A DNA stretch of 38,177 nucleotides, taken from an uncultured Desulfobulbaceae bacterium (GTDB lineage: Bacteria; Desulfobacterota; Desulfobulbia; Desulfobulbales; CALZHT01). The position numbers were made by a program, and so were the translations under genes. Below the pieces are notes generated by a model. The model ran no database searches. It was not told the origin of the DNA and saw nothing but the letters and a program-made list of their open reading frames with translations. The stretch covers positions 1 through 38,177 of the forward strand of contig CALZHT010000081.1 of NCBI GenBank assembly GCA_945787445.1. The letters are read 5' to 3'. Shown here one piece after another: positions 9,058-15,081 of this stretch; position 1 is the stretch's first letter; each line of letters opens with the position of its first letter.

Positions 9058-9459
9058 TCAGGCAATCCAGACGATTTTCACTTCATCCTTCAGCAATTTA
9101 AACTCAGGGTCTCCGGTCAGCACTGTGGCCTTGCGTTGTTTAGCAAGTGCCGCAGCAAAGCAGTCAGCGTAAGCAATCTTGTATTTTCCTTTGAGTTTTG
9201 CCGCTGCCTTGGTAAGTGAATGGTCAGCTTCAATCAAAGTAAGAGGATAATTGCCTAAGTGTTTTATCACCTCCTCCGCTACAGTTTCGCTCTGCTCCCG
9301 CATAACGGTGTAGTATATTTCTCCCCAGTTGGTGATGCATAATAAGCCCTCCGCCCTGTTGAGCATCACTTCGCGTAGAGCCTTTTCGACCTGGTCAGCA
9401 CCTGGCTCATCCTCCAAAAAGGCGAGGATGGCATAGCTGTCAAAAACATAGCGCTTCAT
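9058..9459 (-). CDS. vapC: VapC-type PIN-domain toxin (ribonuclease)
   Basis: This 133-residue protein has the PIN-domain acidic residues: Asp in VFDSYAIL near the N-terminus, Glu in TNWGEIYY, Asp in IAYADCFAAALA and Asp in LTGDPEF. These coordinate the metal ions of the ribonuclease active site in VapC toxins, which cleave tRNA or rRNA when released from the antitoxin. Length is typical. Its start overlaps the last codons of the upstream AbrB-type antitoxin gene by four bases, the usual sign of translational coupling. The RNA target cannot be told from sequence. Confidence 0.92.
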   Translation of the reverse strand: MKRYVFDSYAILAFLEDEPGADQVEKALREVMLNRAEGLLCITNWGEIYYTVMREQSETVAEEVIKHLGNYPLTLIEADHSLTKAAAKLKGKYKIAYADCFAAALAKQRKATVLTGDPEFKLLKDEVKIVWIA

Positions 9460-9686
9460 TTCCCCGACTCAAATTTACGGTCGGCAAGGAGCCGCTTGAG
9501 GGCTTTTCCTTTGGTTTTCAGTATGCCTCGACCGGCCTTAAGCATGTCATCCGGCAGAGGTTCCATGATGATCTTGCCGTTTTGCTCCTCAACTGAAATC
9601 CGGGTACCTTTGCGGATATTCAATTTCTTCCTCATGGTAGCCGGGATGGTGACTTGGCCTTTTATGGTTGCTGTGGTGGTTGGCAT
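9456..9686 (-). CDS. vapB: AbrB/SpoVT-type antitoxin partner of the downstream PIN toxin
   Basis: The 76-residue protein carries an N-terminal swapped-hairpin DNA-binding domain (IKGQVTIPATMRKKLNI, then GTRISVEEQNGKIIMEPL) of the SpoVT/AbrB fold. The C-terminal tail is basic and likely wraps the toxin. A good ribosome binding site (AGGAGAT) lies just upstream of the ATG. It is the first gene of a two-gene operon and, as is usual for this class, should neutralise the PIN toxin and repress its own promoter. Confidence 0.9.
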   Translation of the reverse strand: MPTTTATIKGQVTIPATMRKKLNIRKGTRISVEEQNGKIIMEPLPDDMLKAGRGILKTKGKALKRLLADRKFESGK

Positions 9687-10535: not shown

Positions 10536-10546
10536 GTTGGCCATCC

Positions 10547-10610
10547 TAAAAAAAAAGGCCTGTCACCATCTTCAGGCAACAGGCCTTTTTGTCACTTGTG
10601 GCGGGGCCGA
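10547..10610 (-). repeat. tRNA-Asp 3' tip plus terminator, duplicated segment (left copy)
   Basis: Together with 10854-10916 this forms a pair of ~63-base direct repeats with few differences. Read on the minus strand, each consists of the last bases of tRNA-Asp (TCGGCCCCGCCA), the spacer CAAGTGACAAAA, and a hairpin GGCCTGTT...GACAGGCC followed by a T run. The pair brackets the GIY-YIG pseudogene. It looks like duplication of the original downstream flank of a tRNA-Asp gene. Confidence 0.8.
10549..10591 (+). terminator. Bidirectional hairpin terminator after the TumE/TumA-like operon
   Basis: AAGGCCTGT pairs with ACAGGCCTT across a ~20-base loop and is followed by TTTTTG on the plus strand and preceded by a run of nine A, so it can end transcription in both directions. 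The stem is part of the duplicated tRNA-Asp downstream flank and so was probably recruited rather than evolved for this operon. Confidence 0.65.
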
Positions 10611-10663
10611 TCCCGCCAAGAGGCGGAAAACTCACAACCTTCCCGCATTACTTGCGGGACGTT

Positions 10664-10851
10664 CTAATTCAAAGCGCTACTTTTGTCGGACAACTCTTCA
10701 ACATGAACCAACTCCCACGGACCTTTTGACTTAGTATATTTTGATCGACCTTGATTATGTCTCTCAAGGCGGGATTCTACATCCTGGGTTGAGCCTATGT
10801 AATAGCTCCCGTCTTTTTTTGACTTTGCAGAATGTACATGTAATAGGGCAT
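10664..10851 (-). pseudogene. Frameshifted GIY-YIG endonuclease gene
   Basis: The minus strand starts MPYYMYILQSQKK, then needs one extra A in the run of seven (plus-strand T7 at 10814-10820) to continue as DGSYYIGSTQDVESRLERHN and SKYTKSKGPWELVHVEELSD. This has the GIY-YIG core (the GSYYIGST strand), the conserved Arg and the RHN helix. After SDKSSAL another one-base loss leads to a stop. With that base restored, the frame reads ELERPASNAGRL, which is a translation of tRNA-Asp-like sequence. So this is a small GIY-YIG nuclease of ~80-90 residues, broken twice, lying between duplicated tRNA-Asp 3' ends. Homing-type mobility is inference. Confidence 0.8.
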
Positions 10852-10853
10852 GG

Positions 10854-10916
10854 TAAAAAAAAGGCCTGTCACCAATCTCTAGGCAACAGGCCTTTTGTCA
10901 CTTGTGGCGGGGCCGA
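10854..10916 (-). repeat. tRNA-Asp 3' tip plus terminator, duplicated segment (right copy)
   Basis: This is the right-hand partner of 10547-10610. On the minus strand the hairpin GGCCTGTT...GACAGGCC ends in a T run that stops three bases before the ATG of the GIY-YIG pseudogene. It is joined on its right to a longer tRNA-Asp 3' half (10905-10950), so this copy keeps the natural tRNA-to-terminator junction. Confidence 0.8.
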
Positions 10917-10950
10917 CGAGACTCGAACTCGCGACCTCCGGTGTGACAGG
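10905..10950 (-). repeat. Orphan tRNA-Asp 3' half: distal attachment-site-like repeat of the islet
   Basis: These 46 bases equal positions 14851-14896 (the 3' half of the intact tRNA-Asp, from the anticodon loop through CCA) with a single mismatch at 10942. There is no matching 5' half beside it, so it is not a functional tRNA. One intact tRNA at one end and its 3' half as a direct repeat at the other is the classic footprint of site-specific integration at the 3' part of a tRNA gene. The DNA between is about 3.95 kb. Confidence 0.88.
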
Positions 10951-11009
10951 CTCACCAAAATGCATGCCTCCCAATGATTTCAAGCAGTTAGAACATGCTC
11001 AAAATGATT

Positions 11010-11056
11010 AAAAGGGCTCAAAAAGATACAGGAAGCCACCAGAGGAGCCATCAAAT
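11010..11056. repeat. 47-bp dispersed repeat, copy 2
   Basis: This is the same-orientation partner of 9805-9851 (44/47 identical). This copy lies inside the tRNA-bounded islet, just upstream of the second vapBC operon, whereas copy 1 lies outside it. The rest of 10951-11195 is AT-rich; a 12-base palindrome AAGAATATTCTT at 11158-11169 just before the ribosome binding site is a possible but weak antitoxin operator. Confidence 0.75.
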
Positions 11057-11195
11057 ATCCAAAAAACTATCTTTCTTGATAAAAATGCAGGAAAATAATA
11101 TTTTTTTGATAAACTACAAACATTAGAATGGTTCAAGGAAATAGAAATTTTCCAAGGAAGAATATTCTTGATTATCTTTTGCATGGAGGTCAGTC

Positions 11196-11411
11196 TTGAA
11201 AGTAACAAAACAAGGTCAAGTAACAATACCAAGAGAATTGCGGAAGCAGCTTGGTTTCCTGCCGGAAACGGAAGTTGAATTTATTGTTGAAGGAAGTACG
11301 ATTCGTCTGGTCAGAAAACTTAAAAAACCGGCTGATGCGTTAAATGCCATTTACGGCAGAAAATCATTTGTCAAGTCAACTGATGAGCTAATGAGGATGC
11401 TTCGAAAGTGA
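11196..11411 (+). CDS. vapB: AbrB-type antitoxin of the second PIN toxin module
   Basis: The 71-residue protein shows the SpoVT/AbrB DNA-binding hairpin (VTKQGQVTIPRELRKQLGF, then TEVEFIVEGSTIRLVRKL) and a short C-terminal toxin-binding tail. It appears to start with TTG at 11196, supported by a strong GGAGGT five bases upstream. Its stop overlaps the start of the toxin gene. It lies inside the tRNA-Asp-bounded islet, upstream of the TOTE-type gene, and could help retain the islet by addiction (inference). Confidence 0.88.
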   Translation: MKVTKQGQVTIPRELRKQLGFLPETEVEFIVEGSTIRLVRKLKKPADALNAIYGRKSFVKSTDELMRMLRK

Positions 11412-11815
11412 GATCCTGGCTTGTTGATACGAATGTTCTGTTAGATATCATCGGCTCAGACTCGAAATTCGGTGAGCTGTCAAAAAACGCTCTATTAGAT
11501 TGTTCGGAAAAAGGCATATTGGTTATAAATCCTGTTGTATTCGCTGAAGTTGGCGCAATGATCGACACTATTGAGGAGTTAAACGATTTATTGCCTGTTT
11601 CGCTTTTTCACAGGCATGAAATTCCTTGGGAAGCGGCCTATCTTGCCGGGCAAGCTTTAGTGCGCTACAAACGCCAGGGTGGGAAGAAAAAAAGAATCTT
11701 AGCGGATTTCCTGATTGGTGCGCACGCAACGGTTTCCGGTATGGATATTATTAGTCGTGATAGTGGATATAGCAAATATTTTACAGTTAAAGTACTTAAC
11801 CCTGCCGAGAAATAG
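11408..11815 (+). CDS. vapC: VapC-type PIN-domain toxin, second module
   Basis: The 135-residue PIN protein has Asp in WLVDTNVLLDI, Glu in NPVVFAEVG, Asp in RILADFLIGAHA and Asp in ISRDSGYSKYF, the four acidic positions of a metal-dependent ribonuclease. The GTG start at 11408 overlaps the antitoxin gene by four bases. The protein differs clearly from the first VapC (9058-9459), so the modules were acquired independently rather than duplicated. The TOTE gene begins 40 bases after its stop, so the three genes could be one transcription unit. Confidence 0.9.
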   Translation: MRSWLVDTNVLLDIIGSDSKFGELSKNALLDCSEKGILVINPVVFAEVGAMIDTIEELNDLLPVSLFHRHEIPWEAAYLAGQALVRYKRQGGKKKRILADFLIGAHATVSGMDIISRDSGYSKYFTVKVLNPAEK

Positions 11816-11854
11816 AATAAATTTTTATTATTTAATAGGACTCAACAAATCATC

Positions 11855-14704
11855 ATGATTACTGAGTCTTGCCCGAATCACAATTCTCCGCCTGATATCA
11901 AAATTGCTCTGTTCCGTGATCTTTTTCGAGGTCGCAGCGATGTGTACCCACGCCGTTTCGAGAGCAGGAAAACTGGTAAGACAGGTTATGTACCGGCCTC
12001 TGCCAATGAGTGGGTTCGAGGTTTATGCGACAAACGAAAAGTGAAGTGTGCTGAATGTCCGAACAGAAAGTTCTTTCAGGTCACTGATGAAATAATCCAT
12101 TGGCATCTCTCAGGAAACGATAACTCCGGCCGCGATTTTGTCATGGGAGTTTATCCCATGCTCCAGGACGAGACTTGTTTCTTAATTGCTGCAGATTTCG
12201 ACAAAGAAAGCTGGAGGGAGGATACGGGGGCTTTCATGAAAACATGCCGCCGTTTTAATTTACCGGCTGCCCTGGAGCGTTCCCGTTCCGGGAACGGCGG
12301 CCACATCTGGATGTTTTTCGAAGAACCGATACCTGCAGTGCTGGCACGAAAACTGGCTTCACACATACTCACAGAAACGATGGAGCAGCGGCCTGGTATT
12401 GGTCTGGATTCCTATGATCGCTTCATCCCCAATCAAGACACCTTGCCTCAAGGAGGTTTTGGAAGTCTCATTGCTCTGCCGCTTCAAAAGAAACCCCGTT
12501 TAGAAGGAAACAGTCTTTTTATCGACGAGGACTTCGTTCCCTTTATCGACCAATGGGAATTTCTGGCAACAATAAAAAAAATCAGTCTGCATCAGGTGGA
12601 AGAAATTGTACGGAAAGCAGAGGCCAGGGGCCGGGTTGTTGGAGTACGTATATCTCCACAGGATGAAGAAGATGATACACCCTGGTCCGCACCTCCCTCC
12701 CGCCGTCGGAAAGATCCACCTGTGCCGGACCTTCCCGAAAACCTCGAACTGGTAATCGGAGACCAGATATACATCCAAGACAAGAAACTCTCTCCTGGGC
12801 TTCGCAACCGTCTCATTCGGCTGGCAGCGTTTCAAAATCCCGAGTTTTACAAAGCACAAGTCATGCGAATTTCTACTTACGGAAAAGAGAGAATTATCAC
12901 TTGTGCCGAGGAATATCCTTCACATATTGGCTTGCCTCGCGGCTGTCTGGAAGAGGTAATAGCTCTTCTGGAGGATTTAAAAGTCAAGGCAGTCCTCCAA
13001 GACGAACGATTTGCCGGGGCACCTTTGACAGGATCGTTTCAGGGAAAGCTTCGGCCGGATCAACTGGCTGCCGCGAAAGTTATGGAAGCCCATGACACCG
13101 GGGTGTTATCCGCCACAACGGCATTCGGGAAAACAGTAATTGCAGCCTGGTTGATAGCCAGGCGAGGCGTCAATACACTGGTCCTTGTTCATCGGAGGCA
13201 ACTTTTGGAGCAATGGGTTGAACGGTTGTCTGTATTCCTGGATATACCGTTCAACGCCATAGGCCGGATCGGTGGTGGCAAGAAAAACCCAACAGGCAGG
13301 CTGGATGTAGCAATAATACAGAGCCTGACGCATAAAGGTGTGGTGGATGACCGAGTCGGTGATTATGGACATATCGTTGTTGATGAATGCCATCATCTCT
13401 CCGCCCGTAGTTTCGAGCTTGTCGTCCGGCGAGCCAAAGCCAAATTCGTTACCGGACTTTCAGCCACCGTAACTCGAAAAGACGGTCACCATCCTATTAT
13501 TTTCATGCAATGCGGTCCAATACGCTATCGAGTCGAACCGAAAAAAGAAGCAAAAAAACGCCCATTCGTTCATCGCGCTATCGTTCGGCCAACAGGATTT
13601 CAACTTTCAAAAATTATGTCCCAGGACGACCGTCTCAAGCTCCATGAACTGTATCTAGAATTGATTACAGATGAAAACCGAAACCGACTTATCTGTTCAG
13701 ATGTTGTAGCGGCTGTAAAGGAAGGACGTTCCCCCCTGGTATTAACAGAGCGCACCAGCCATCTTGATGTGCTGTCGCAGCAGTTATCCCCCGAGGTAGA
13801 ACATTTGATTGTTTTGCGCGGAGGCATTGGCAAGAAAAAATTGAAAAACATAATGGTCCAACTGGCAACAATTCCTGAAGATGAACAACGAGTGTTGTTG
13901 GCAACTGGCCGGTATATAGGCGAAGGATTTGACGATCCCAGGCTGGACACGCTCTTTCTGACTCTACCTGTCTCTTGGCGGGGAATTATTACTCAGTATG
14001 CCGGACGATTACATCGCTTGCATGACCGCAAGCGCGAAGTCCTGATCTATGATTATGCCGATCTCGACGAGCCTATGCTGGCAAGAATGTTCGAACGCCG
14101 CTGCCGGGGATACGAGTCGATCGGGTATACAATAAAGATTCCCGGGAGCGCAGTCCCCGGATGGCCGGCTGAAGTAACCCTTCCAGATGATCACCAGTGG
14201 AAACAAAACTACATCGGTACTATCAGACGGTTGATTCGTGATGGTGTGGACAGGCCACTTGCAACTTTGTTTCTCAATGCGACCCGGGCACTATCTCCAG
14301 ATGCCGAAGGGGTAGAAAGAGCACGCAGCGCCAGCGAGGCATTCCTGTATAGCCAGTTGCAATCCCTGCCGCAGACTGCAAACAGGTTTAACCTAAATGT
14401 AGAACTGCCAATTCCTTTTGATGGCAGGGGAAAAATGGAAGTCGATCTTCTCGATGCAGATAGCCGTATCGCGATTGAGATCGACGGGGCGCAACACTTA
14501 AGCGATCCAATAGCATATCGTCGTGATCGACGAAAAGATCAGTTATTGCAGGAAAACAGTTATTTTATCCTGCGTTTTCTTGCCGAGGATATCAGTAAGC
14601 ATCTTGATGAGGTCCTCGACGCTATCCAACGCACACTGACTAATCGCGACAGTGTCACTTCGAAAAAAAGTGGGCCATTAAAAGAAAACAAAAATGCTGT
14701 CTGA
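11855..14704 (+). CDS. TOTE-type conflict protein: archaeo-eukaryotic primase + SF2 helicase + DUF559/Vsr-like nuclease
   Basis: The 949-residue protein has three enzymatic parts. Residues ~15-235 match the primase (AEP) domain of TOTE conflict systems: a Cys cluster (C58, C65, C68), catalytic D114 and D116 in IAADFD, H150 in SGNGGH, and D185 in GLDSYD. Residues ~395-760 are a superfamily 2 helicase: AFGKT (423-427) as Walker A, DECH (510-513), GLSAT motif III, GRYIGEGFDDP and QYAGRLHR as motifs V and VI. Residues ~830-930 are a DUF559/Vsr-like nuclease with EVDLLD, RIAIEIDGAQH and a basic YRRDRRKD. All key residues seem intact. Such proteins are thought to act against invading DNA; substrate and trigger are unknown. 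It lies in a tRNA-Asp-bounded islet downstream of a VapBC pair. A plain ResIII restriction helicase is excluded by the primase domain. Confidence 0.9.
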   Translation: MITESCPNHNSPPDIKIALFRDLFRGRSDVYPRRFESRKTGKTGYVPASANEWVRGLCDKRKVKCAECPNRKFFQVTDEIIHWHLSGNDNSGRDFVMGVYPMLQDETCFLIAADFDKESWREDTGAFMKTCRRFNLPAALERSRSGNGGHIWMFFEEPIPAVLARKLASHILTETMEQRPGIGLDSYDRFIPNQDTLPQGGFGSLIALPLQKKPRLEGNSLFIDEDFVPFIDQWEFLATIKKISLHQVEEIVRKAEARGRVVGVRISPQDEEDDTPWSAPPSRRRKDPPVPDLPENLELVIGDQIYIQDKKLSPGLRNRLIRLAAFQNPEFYKAQVMRISTYGKERIITCAEEYPSHIGLPRGCLEEVIALLEDLKVKAVLQDERFAGAPLTGSFQGKLRPDQLAAAKVMEAHDTGVLSATTAFGKTVIAAWLIARRGVNTLVLVHRRQLLEQWVERLSVFLDIPFNAIGRIGGGKKNPTGRLDVAIIQSLTHKGVVDDRVGDYGHIVVDECHHLSARSFELVVRRAKAKFVTGLSATVTRKDGHHPIIFMQCGPIRYRVEPKKEAKKRPFVHRAIVRPTGFQLSKIMSQDDRLKLHELYLELITDENRNRLICSDVVAAVKEGRSPLVLTERTSHLDVLSQQLSPEVEHLIVLRGGIGKKKLKNIMVQLATIPEDEQRVLLATGRYIGEGFDDPRLDTLFLTLPVSWRGIITQYAGRLHRLHDRKREVLIYDYADLDEPMLARMFERRCRGYESIGYTIKIPGSAVPGWPAEVTLPDDHQWKQNYIGTIRRLIRDGVDRPLATLFLNATRALSPDAEGVERARSASEAFLYSQLQSLPQTANRFNLNVELPIPFDGRGKMEVDLLDADSRIAIEIDGAQHLSDPIAYRRDRRKDQLLQENSYFILRFLAEDISKHLDEVLDAIQRTLTNRDSVTSKKSGPLKENKNAV

Positions 14705-14730
14705 TTATAATAATATTCGAACTGAGCTAC

Positions 14731-14765
14731 GACCTCCAGCCTGTTTTTGGAGGCCGTTTTGGTGG
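14731..14765 (+). terminator. Probable terminator of the TOTE-type gene
   Basis: CCTCCA (14733-14738) pairs with TGGAGG (14748-14753), followed by T-rich sequence. The stem is only six pairs and the T tract is interrupted, so efficiency is uncertain. The upstream bases 14720-14736 resemble the 5' end of tRNA-Asp read on the other strand. Confidence 0.45.
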
Positions 14766-14806
14766 CTTTTTAATTTTAATAAAATCAACAGGTTAGAAAA
14801 ACGGCA

Positions 14807-14842
14807 AAAAATAAGGGGTTAGCTGTCACAGGCTAACCCCTT
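14807..14842 (-). terminator. Intrinsic terminator downstream of tRNA-Asp
   Basis: On the minus strand AAGGGGTTAGC pairs perfectly with GCTAACCCCTT, followed by ATTTTTTG. It lies eight bases after the tRNA 3' end. Its sequence is unrelated to the GGCCTGTT-type terminators beside the orphan tRNA halves at 10.5-10.9 kb, as expected if the islet brought a new downstream flank. Confidence 0.85.
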
Positions 14843-14850
14843 GATTTAAC

Positions 14851-14896
14851 TGGCGGGGCCGACGAGACTCGAACTCGCGACCTCCGGCGTGACAGG
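14851..14896 (-). repeat. Proximal attachment-site-like repeat (3' half of the intact tRNA-Asp)
   Basis: These 46 bases pair as a direct repeat with 10905-10950 (45/46 identical). Together they bound the VapBC/TOTE islet. The shared segment runs from the anticodon loop to the CCA end, a common integration core for tyrosine recombinases, but no recombinase gene lies between the repeats. Confidence 0.88.
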
Positions 14897-14928
14897 CCGG
14901 CGTTCTAACCAAACTGAACTACGACCCC
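14851..14928 (-). tRNA. tRNA-Asp (anticodon GUC)
   Basis: The minus strand folds into a complete tRNA: acceptor GGGGTCG/CGGCCCC, D arm with TAGTTCAG, anticodon stem CCGGC/GCCGG with loop CTGTCAC (anticodon GTC), T arm GTTCGAGTC, discriminator G and encoded CCA. It lies downstream of tRNA-Val and is probably cotranscribed with it. Its 3' half is the attachment-like repeat of the islet to its left, and the integration keeps the tRNA intact. Confidence 0.95.
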
Positions 14929-14974
14929 GCAATATATCTTTTGTTGCCTCGAAGGCTTTCTTCTTGGTTGCGGT

Positions 14975-15031
14975 CTCGCGACCTTCCCGCATCACATGCG
15001 GGACGTTCTAACCAAACTGAACTACGAACCC
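14975..15031 (-). pseudogene. Truncated tRNA-Asp copy with a substituted anticodon arm
   Basis: The minus strand repeats the tRNA-Asp 5' part (GGGTTCGTAGTTCAG... to TTAGAACG, one change in the acceptor) including the TATTGC just upstream. The anticodon arm is then TCCCGC-ATGTGAT-GCGGGA, whose loop would present GUG, a histidine anticodon. It resumes as AGGTCGCGAG and breaks off, with no T loop or acceptor 3' strand, so it cannot be a functional tRNA. The same TCCCGC...GCGGGA arm occurs at the tail of the GIY-YIG pseudogene (10640-10665), suggesting a common origin. Confidence 0.75.
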
Positions 15032-15081
15032 GCAATATGTAAGTGTTTAAACGGTTTCAATCGTTTAAACGGTTATTTTTT

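Follow-up and report, generated by a model that had tools for sequence, protein, structure and literature searches.

A decayed GIY-YIG nuclease gene lies next to tRNA-Asp in a 38,177-nucleotide stretch of DNA from an uncultured Desulfobulbaceae bacterium (referred to here, as a whole, as the window). This copy is dead and is a decayed member of a tRNA-bound gene family. We consider it about an even bet that the family represents a new class of minimal mobile element, one that consists only of a GIY-YIG nuclease of ~80 amino acids and a palindrome, that has made a copy of the host tRNA into its own end by replacing one tRNA arm, hairpin for hairpin, and that has moved among at least 12 isotypes and several bacterial phyla. 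The location of the genes, the host origin of the repeats, the arm replacement, the tandem arrays, the empty sites and purifying selection on the nuclease are all directly supported.

The tRNA-Asp locus of the window

Read along the minus strand, the locus contains the following parts, with three plus-strand genes inside one insert:

15157-15082, minus strand: tRNA-Val
14960-15033 (3' limit approximate), minus strand: solo arm-swapped copy of tRNA-Asp, placed by alignment (pattern match 14981-15005)
14851-14928, minus strand: intact tRNA-Asp (GTC), the element's host tRNA (T), found by ARAGORN and Rfam RF00005 (69.3 bits)
10952-14850, no strand assigned: separate insert of 3.9 kb that parts tRNA-Asp from its displaced 3' half
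11196-11411, plus strand: MazE/AbrB-like gene in the insert (Pfam, ORFs)
11408-11815, plus strand: PIN gene in the insert (Pfam, ORFs)
11855-14704, plus strand: TOTE primase-helicase-DUF559 gene in the insert (Pfam, ORFs)
10905-10951, minus strand: displaced tRNA-Asp 3' half, from the anticodon loop to CCA (sequence identity)
10853-10904, minus strand: terminator X1, CAAGTGACAAAAGGCCTGTTGCC..GGTGACAGGCCTTTTTTTT
10664-10851, minus strand: decayed GIY-YIG nuclease gene (PF01541; frames; comparison with intact relatives)
10599-10667, minus strand: T', a partial, degenerate tRNA-Asp copy overlapping the 3' end of the GIY-YIG gene (alignment; pattern match 10637-10661)
10544-10598, minus strand: terminator X2, a near-identical copy of X1

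The preliminary description of this locus had recognized a GIY-YIG gene within tRNA-Asp-derived repeats, and the match to PF01541, the displaced 3' half, T' and the X1/X2 pair bear this out. The Pfam model aligns at 10670-10825 on the minus strand (48.8 bits, E 3.3e-12, with a gathering cut-off of 22.6), where relatives score 46.5-68.8 bits, and the conserved Tyr, Tyr, Arg and Glu positions of catalytic type are present, with Y6, Y17, G19, R27 and E63 invariant in the family alignment. Over 47 nt the displaced 3' half shares 98% identity with the intact tRNA-Asp (14851-14897; E 7.8e-16). The alignment of T' to tRNA-Asp extends from the D-loop through CCA, and T' contains two palindromes, one (10659-10641) that replaces the anticodon arm and one (10628-10611) within the T arm.

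The frameshift reported earlier is likewise present. The ORF starts at 10851, its frame is broken in a run of seven A residues near 10820 and tRNA-like sequence begins at ~10667. The last ~20 codons of the relatives have been deleted from the window's gene, and ..SSALN is fused directly to tRNA sequence. The tail ELERPASNAGRL, which had been presented as a tRNA-Asp-encoded C-terminus, is readable only in a third frame, past the deletion junction, and is an artefact of frameshift and deletion. Over the same stretch, intact relatives read ..KSRKYIESLVRTSR followed by a stop codon, where LVRTS is read from the D-loop of the tRNA and the bases that follow it (TTGGTTAGAACGTCC), and their native tails (..SLVRTSR-stop, ..LISSAG) run into the pseudo-tRNA. 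Since the LVRTS of intact relatives is itself encoded by tRNA sequence, the idea of a tRNA-encoded tail was right and its letters were wrong.

Upstream of the intact tRNA-Asp lies the solo arm-swapped copy, which had previously been overlooked. It consists of the 5' half and D arm of tRNA-Asp, after which the palindrome TCCCGCATGTGATGCGGGA (15003-14985) stands where the anticodon arm would be. The copy (15033 to ~14960) has no GIY-YIG gene attached and is so degenerate that it falls below tRNA recognition in an Rfam scan of the window.

The gene had also been described as bracketed by two copies of the tRNA-Asp 3' tip plus terminator. Across the family the terminator is often within the repeat. 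In the window the 47-nt 3' half beside X1 has been parted from its tRNA by the different, 3.9-kb insert with its TOTE primase-helicase and VapBC-like genes. No recombinase or integrase was recognized among the ORFs scanned in this insert. Downstream of X2, two small overlapping minus-strand ORFs (9058-9686) are arranged like an AbrB-PIN toxin-antitoxin pair, by layout only, and look different from the AbrB/MazE-PIN pair in the insert.

tRNA association and arm replacement across the family

In the 84,980 species genomes scanned, from which 80 relatives were kept, the family turned up in Desulfobacterota, Bacteroidota, Cloacimonadota, Ignavibacteria/Melioribacteraceae, Calditrichota, Nitrospirota and Chloroflexi. 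Most of these relatives lie directly downstream of a tRNA gene of the same orientation. A merged set with added Pontibacter, Bacteroidota and members of the window's class contains 155 relatives (at least 80 bits, at least 250 nt of upstream sequence), picked by protein similarity without regard to tRNA context; in 138 of them a tRNA lies within 500 nt on the same strand, and in one the nearby tRNA is antisense. Among family loci, 15 tRNA isotype labels are represented, and 18 of 50 Pontibacter species contain a family match. The contrast with other subfamilies serves as an internal control: a tRNA is nearby in 4 of 32 matches at 55-65 bits, which mostly belong to another GIY-YIG subfamily, and in 0 of 27 other-subfamily GIY-YIG genes of the window's class, which rules out a tRNA affinity general to all GIY-YIG genes. 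Carriage by plasmids or phages found little support, with only one distant match for plasmids and two for phages; a family representative has almost no phage relatives.

The solved structures that best match the family profile are UPF0213/YazA-type proteins (1zg2, 1ywl), followed by SLX1 structure-specific endonucleases. The SLX1 match would be compatible with a hairpin substrate. The UPF0213/YazA-type proteins are the nearest solved structures by sequence, but such host-type GIY-YIG genes are not tRNA-associated in our sample of the window's class.

One unit spans ~320-360 bp and comprises the ~80-codon GIY-YIG gene and the pseudo-tRNA T', inside which the gene usually ends. The tRNA lies 5' of the gene in most loci and 3' of it in a second layout (L202, L204, L212, L289). 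The preliminary description had staked its proposal on other GIY-YIG genes ending in tRNA-like sequence, and these turn out to form a large family. One locus (L303, G193:C34:6282-10463) holds eight GIY-YIG copies in ~2.8 kb, with no tRNA gene detected across the 4.2 kb read. Many metagenome contigs stop within a few hundred bases of an element (L016, L018, L019, L024, L026, L060, L073, L077 and others). The locus is repeat-rich, and such contig ends are to be expected where assembly is broken by repeats; the family is probably under-counted.

The hallmark of these units, which escaped the preliminary description, is that T' is a copy of the neighboring tRNA in which one arm has been exchanged for a palindrome of 15-20 nt. 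With palindrome boundaries mapped without reference to tRNA structure, the anticodon arm proved to be exactly replaced (17-nt stem-loop, positions 28-43/44) in 52 of 77 mapped cases, which span Ala, Asp, Arg, Leu, Met, Val, Pro, Lys, Gln, Gly and Ser tRNAs. Typically the left flank runs to tRNA position 27 and the right flank starts again at 44, and these limits shift where the tRNA is longer or shorter. In another 18 cases (Asp and Gly) the palindrome takes the place of a fixed 8-nt T-arm site, and in one case that of the D arm; six are unclassified. The palindrome core is mostly TCCCG..CGGGA, with the variants TTCCG (the Flagellimonas/Muricauda clade and a few others), TGGCG (tRNA-Pro) and CTCCG (tRNA-Lys), and the pair beside the TCCCG/CGGGA core varies in a compensatory manner (A-T, C-G, T-A, G-C). 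The motif tracks nuclease phylogeny (7 changes, compared to a shuffled minimum of 12), a pattern for which tRNA type and host lineage are confounders.

At 77 of 84 loci, the final 28 nt of T' are closer to the neighboring tRNA than to any different same-type tRNA, and by this comparison T' is a copy of the host's own tRNA. The earlier proposal of an element with a degenerate tRNA 3' half as its tail thus holds in that the tail is tRNA-derived, but the element carries no generic half from place to place: the tail is copied from the tRNA beside it. Similarity between the terminators X1 and X2 exceeds the 95th percentile of X1/X2 pairs drawn from other loci in 54 of 85 cases, and the two are unlike in about one-third of loci, including most of those in Desulfobacterota, so a single insertion event does not fit every copy. 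At one locus (L161) X1 is element-like and X2 resembles the terminator of an empty relative, a mixture that would be expected if units also spread via recombination in the tRNA arms.

Arrays, empty sites and the proposed mode of spread

Perfect tandem arrays occur in one genome, where three 323-bp units end in an intact tRNA-Ser and three 317-bp units end in an intact tRNA-Pro. Both arrays mirror the common layout, with the gene preceded by the palindrome-bearing copy and followed by the intact tRNA. Intact elements and empty tRNA sites, both of which had been suggested as things to look for, were each found. The loci read that have the window's lon-tRNAVal-tRNAAsp order are nearly all empty, including that of the closest relative found to the window; orthologous sites of the Pontibacter tRNA-Ala are empty in sister genomes; and the tRNA-Pro-yajQ site is occupied in some sister genomes and empty in others, with 96.6% identity over the upstream 200 nt. 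Relics of elements are also found (L165, L330). Median dN/dS is 0.10 across 81 pairs, a sign of purifying selection, so the nuclease is maintained in general even though the window's copy is dead. On the nuclease tree, which is poorly resolved, at least 36 changes of tRNA type are counted, compared to 88 or more in shuffles, which indicates that most spread keeps the tRNA type.

We think it rather probable, somewhat beyond an even chance, that these loci are minimal chromosomal tRNA-bound elements, each a nuclease plus a palindrome, that are cut at the palindrome and recombine through tRNA homology. The nuclease would act at the palindrome as single-stranded DNA or as an extruded hairpin, and the broken end would then recombine via the homology between the tRNA and T'. 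Within one chromosome, such recombination would duplicate or delete units, while with incoming DNA the unit would be copied into an empty tRNA locus, the tRNA sequence providing the homology arms. A complete functional tRNA would be left at every step. The palindrome is the one invariant part that is not tRNA, and it is our preferred candidate for the cut site because cutting there would account jointly for arrays, losses, relics and spread.

Comparisons of tRNA alleles bear on this proposal. A single tRNA-Pro allele is shared by the occupied G272 and G375 and by G374, which bears a relic, and the empty genomes G376 and G373 carry another (13/76 differences). G272 and G376 are nearly identical in flank and YajQ and yet differ in this allele, so the tRNA allele changed together with the element there. 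At these tRNA-Pro, yajQ loci (L326-L330) the allele follows element occupancy and not flank phylogeny, possibly reflecting element-linked replacement of the host tRNA. Such replacement was rejected as a general rule, as it is seen at tRNA-Pro, is confounded with phylogeny at tRNA-Ser and is absent at the Pontibacter tRNA-Ala, which is identical in occupied and empty genomes.

These alleles, which go with occupancy despite near-identical flanks, speak for an alternative that we regard as unlikely but worth serious consideration: an ordinary free-standing homing endonuclease that cuts the intact tRNA of element-less cells, with T' being the displaced part of the old tRNA and the supplied tRNA being a cut-resistant allele. 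Occupied and empty alleles do exist at the same site, as for a homing element, and the L161 terminators (X1 element-like, X2 native-like) would fit as well. Phage SegB, which likewise belongs to the GIY-YIG enzymes, has been implicated in the cleavage of tRNA-containing DNA (PMC13096335). The identical Pontibacter tRNA-Ala argues against such homing, since the donor's tRNA would be cut too; cutting of the resident tRNA followed by resistant replacement is therefore not general if the donor survives. The tRNA-Ser difference lends no clear help because of its confounding, and homing leaves the precise, stereotyped palindrome in one arm of T' unaccounted for. Resident-tRNA cutting with resistant replacement is possible in some lineages.

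The genomic distribution of the palindromes bears on a second alternative, which we consider improbable, in which the GIY-YIG gene hitchhikes at tRNA loci, these being hot spots of recombination, and something else produced the palindromes as REP-like debris. Bare TCCCG..CGGGA palindromes are strongly enriched relative to a reversed-pattern control in G000, G001, G002, G004, G005, G010 and G015, with genome-wide counts of 34 versus 2 in G000 and 75 versus 0 in G001. This enrichment would suit debris, as would the existence of CGTC REPs that lack a known mobilizer (PMC3733652). The 21 occurrences of the form CGTCCCG..CGGGAAGGT, however, all lie at or close to GIY loci; they come from 13 of 20 genomes, and the three element-less relatives checked have none. 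REP-like dispersal of the tRNA-flanked palindrome is ruled out by its confinement near the GIY locus in these 20 genomes. Hitchhiking would also predict that palindrome-bearing pseudo-tRNAs without a GIY-YIG gene are common, the reverse of what the 20 genomes showed, and it sits poorly with the 138:1 strand bias, the exactness of arm replacement and the tracking of nuclease by motif. Least probable of all is that T' acts as RNA, either as a tRNA-like 3' end that stabilizes or regulates the nuclease mRNA or as a decoy tRNA within a host-beneficial cassette: the arm-for-arm exchange keeps a hairpin at a tRNA hairpin position and T' at many loci retains its T loop and 3' terminus, but its 5' acceptor strand is usually missing, the copy in one layout is cut after the anticodon arm (L289) and the distribution is patchy and rich in relics.

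Comparison with known systems

tRNA genes are classic landing sites of bacterial mobile DNA, which reaches them via integrases. As in tyrosine-recombinase islands at tRNA 3' ends, a tRNA repeat brackets the insert of the present family and a functional tRNA is kept. The family differs from these islands in its ~320-bp unit, in the palindrome within one repeat, in its perfect tandem arrays and in its gene content, as the 317-323 bp units contain only the GIY-YIG gene and no integrase.

The Ssn protein of Neisseria is a small GIY-YIG nuclease that reportedly cuts single-stranded DNA at palindromic repeats of the TTCCCG..CGGGAA type. The two systems would be alike in pairing a small GIY-YIG protein with a similar palindrome, whereas the Neisseria targets are dispersed repeats and the family's palindrome lies in a tRNA arm beside the gene. 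CGTC REPs (for example, Neisseria dRS3) are found in Bacteroidetes, Chlorobi and Proteobacteria, among others, have no known transposase and are defined by dispersed copies, a CGTC tag and an AT-first stem (PMC3733652). They resemble the family's palindromes in being short and having a similar core, but the latter are locus-bound with tRNA flanks and have stems that start with TCCCG.

Free-standing GIY-YIG homing genes near tRNAs are already known from phages. The closest published precedent for the family is SegB, a free-standing GIY-YIG homing endonuclease of T-even phages: segB genes cluster with tRNA genes of many isotypes, the segB 3' end shares microhomology with the 5' end of tRNA-Tyr and SegB drives tandem amplification of tRNA plus segB (PMC13096335). 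A GIY-YIG enzyme, tRNA clustering, tRNA homology at the 3' end and tandem amplification are thus features that SegB shares with the family. The family protein differs in being a bare ~80-amino-acid domain encoded in bacterial chromosomes, and the 3' end of its gene lies in a host-copied pseudo-tRNA with a palindrome-swapped arm; arm replacement and terminator duplication are not mentioned for SegB in the parts of its report consulted (PMC13096335).

A literature search of openly licensed papers yielded no account of GIY-YIG units that are bound to bacterial tRNA genes and bear an arm-swapped pseudo-tRNA. The family appears to represent an undescribed means by which a minimal element can occupy tRNA genes and spread between them, across at least 12 tRNA kinds and several phyla. 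It suggests that a lone domain-sized nuclease plus a palindrome can occupy tRNA genes, with the host tRNA copied as the element's end, and it offers a reason for the many small chromosomal genes annotated as 'GIY-YIG nuclease family' and for their odd tRNA-like C-termini. The family may also connect GIY-YIG enzymes with TCCCG palindromes of no known mobilizer and makes a direct question testable, namely whether each enzyme cuts its own palindrome.
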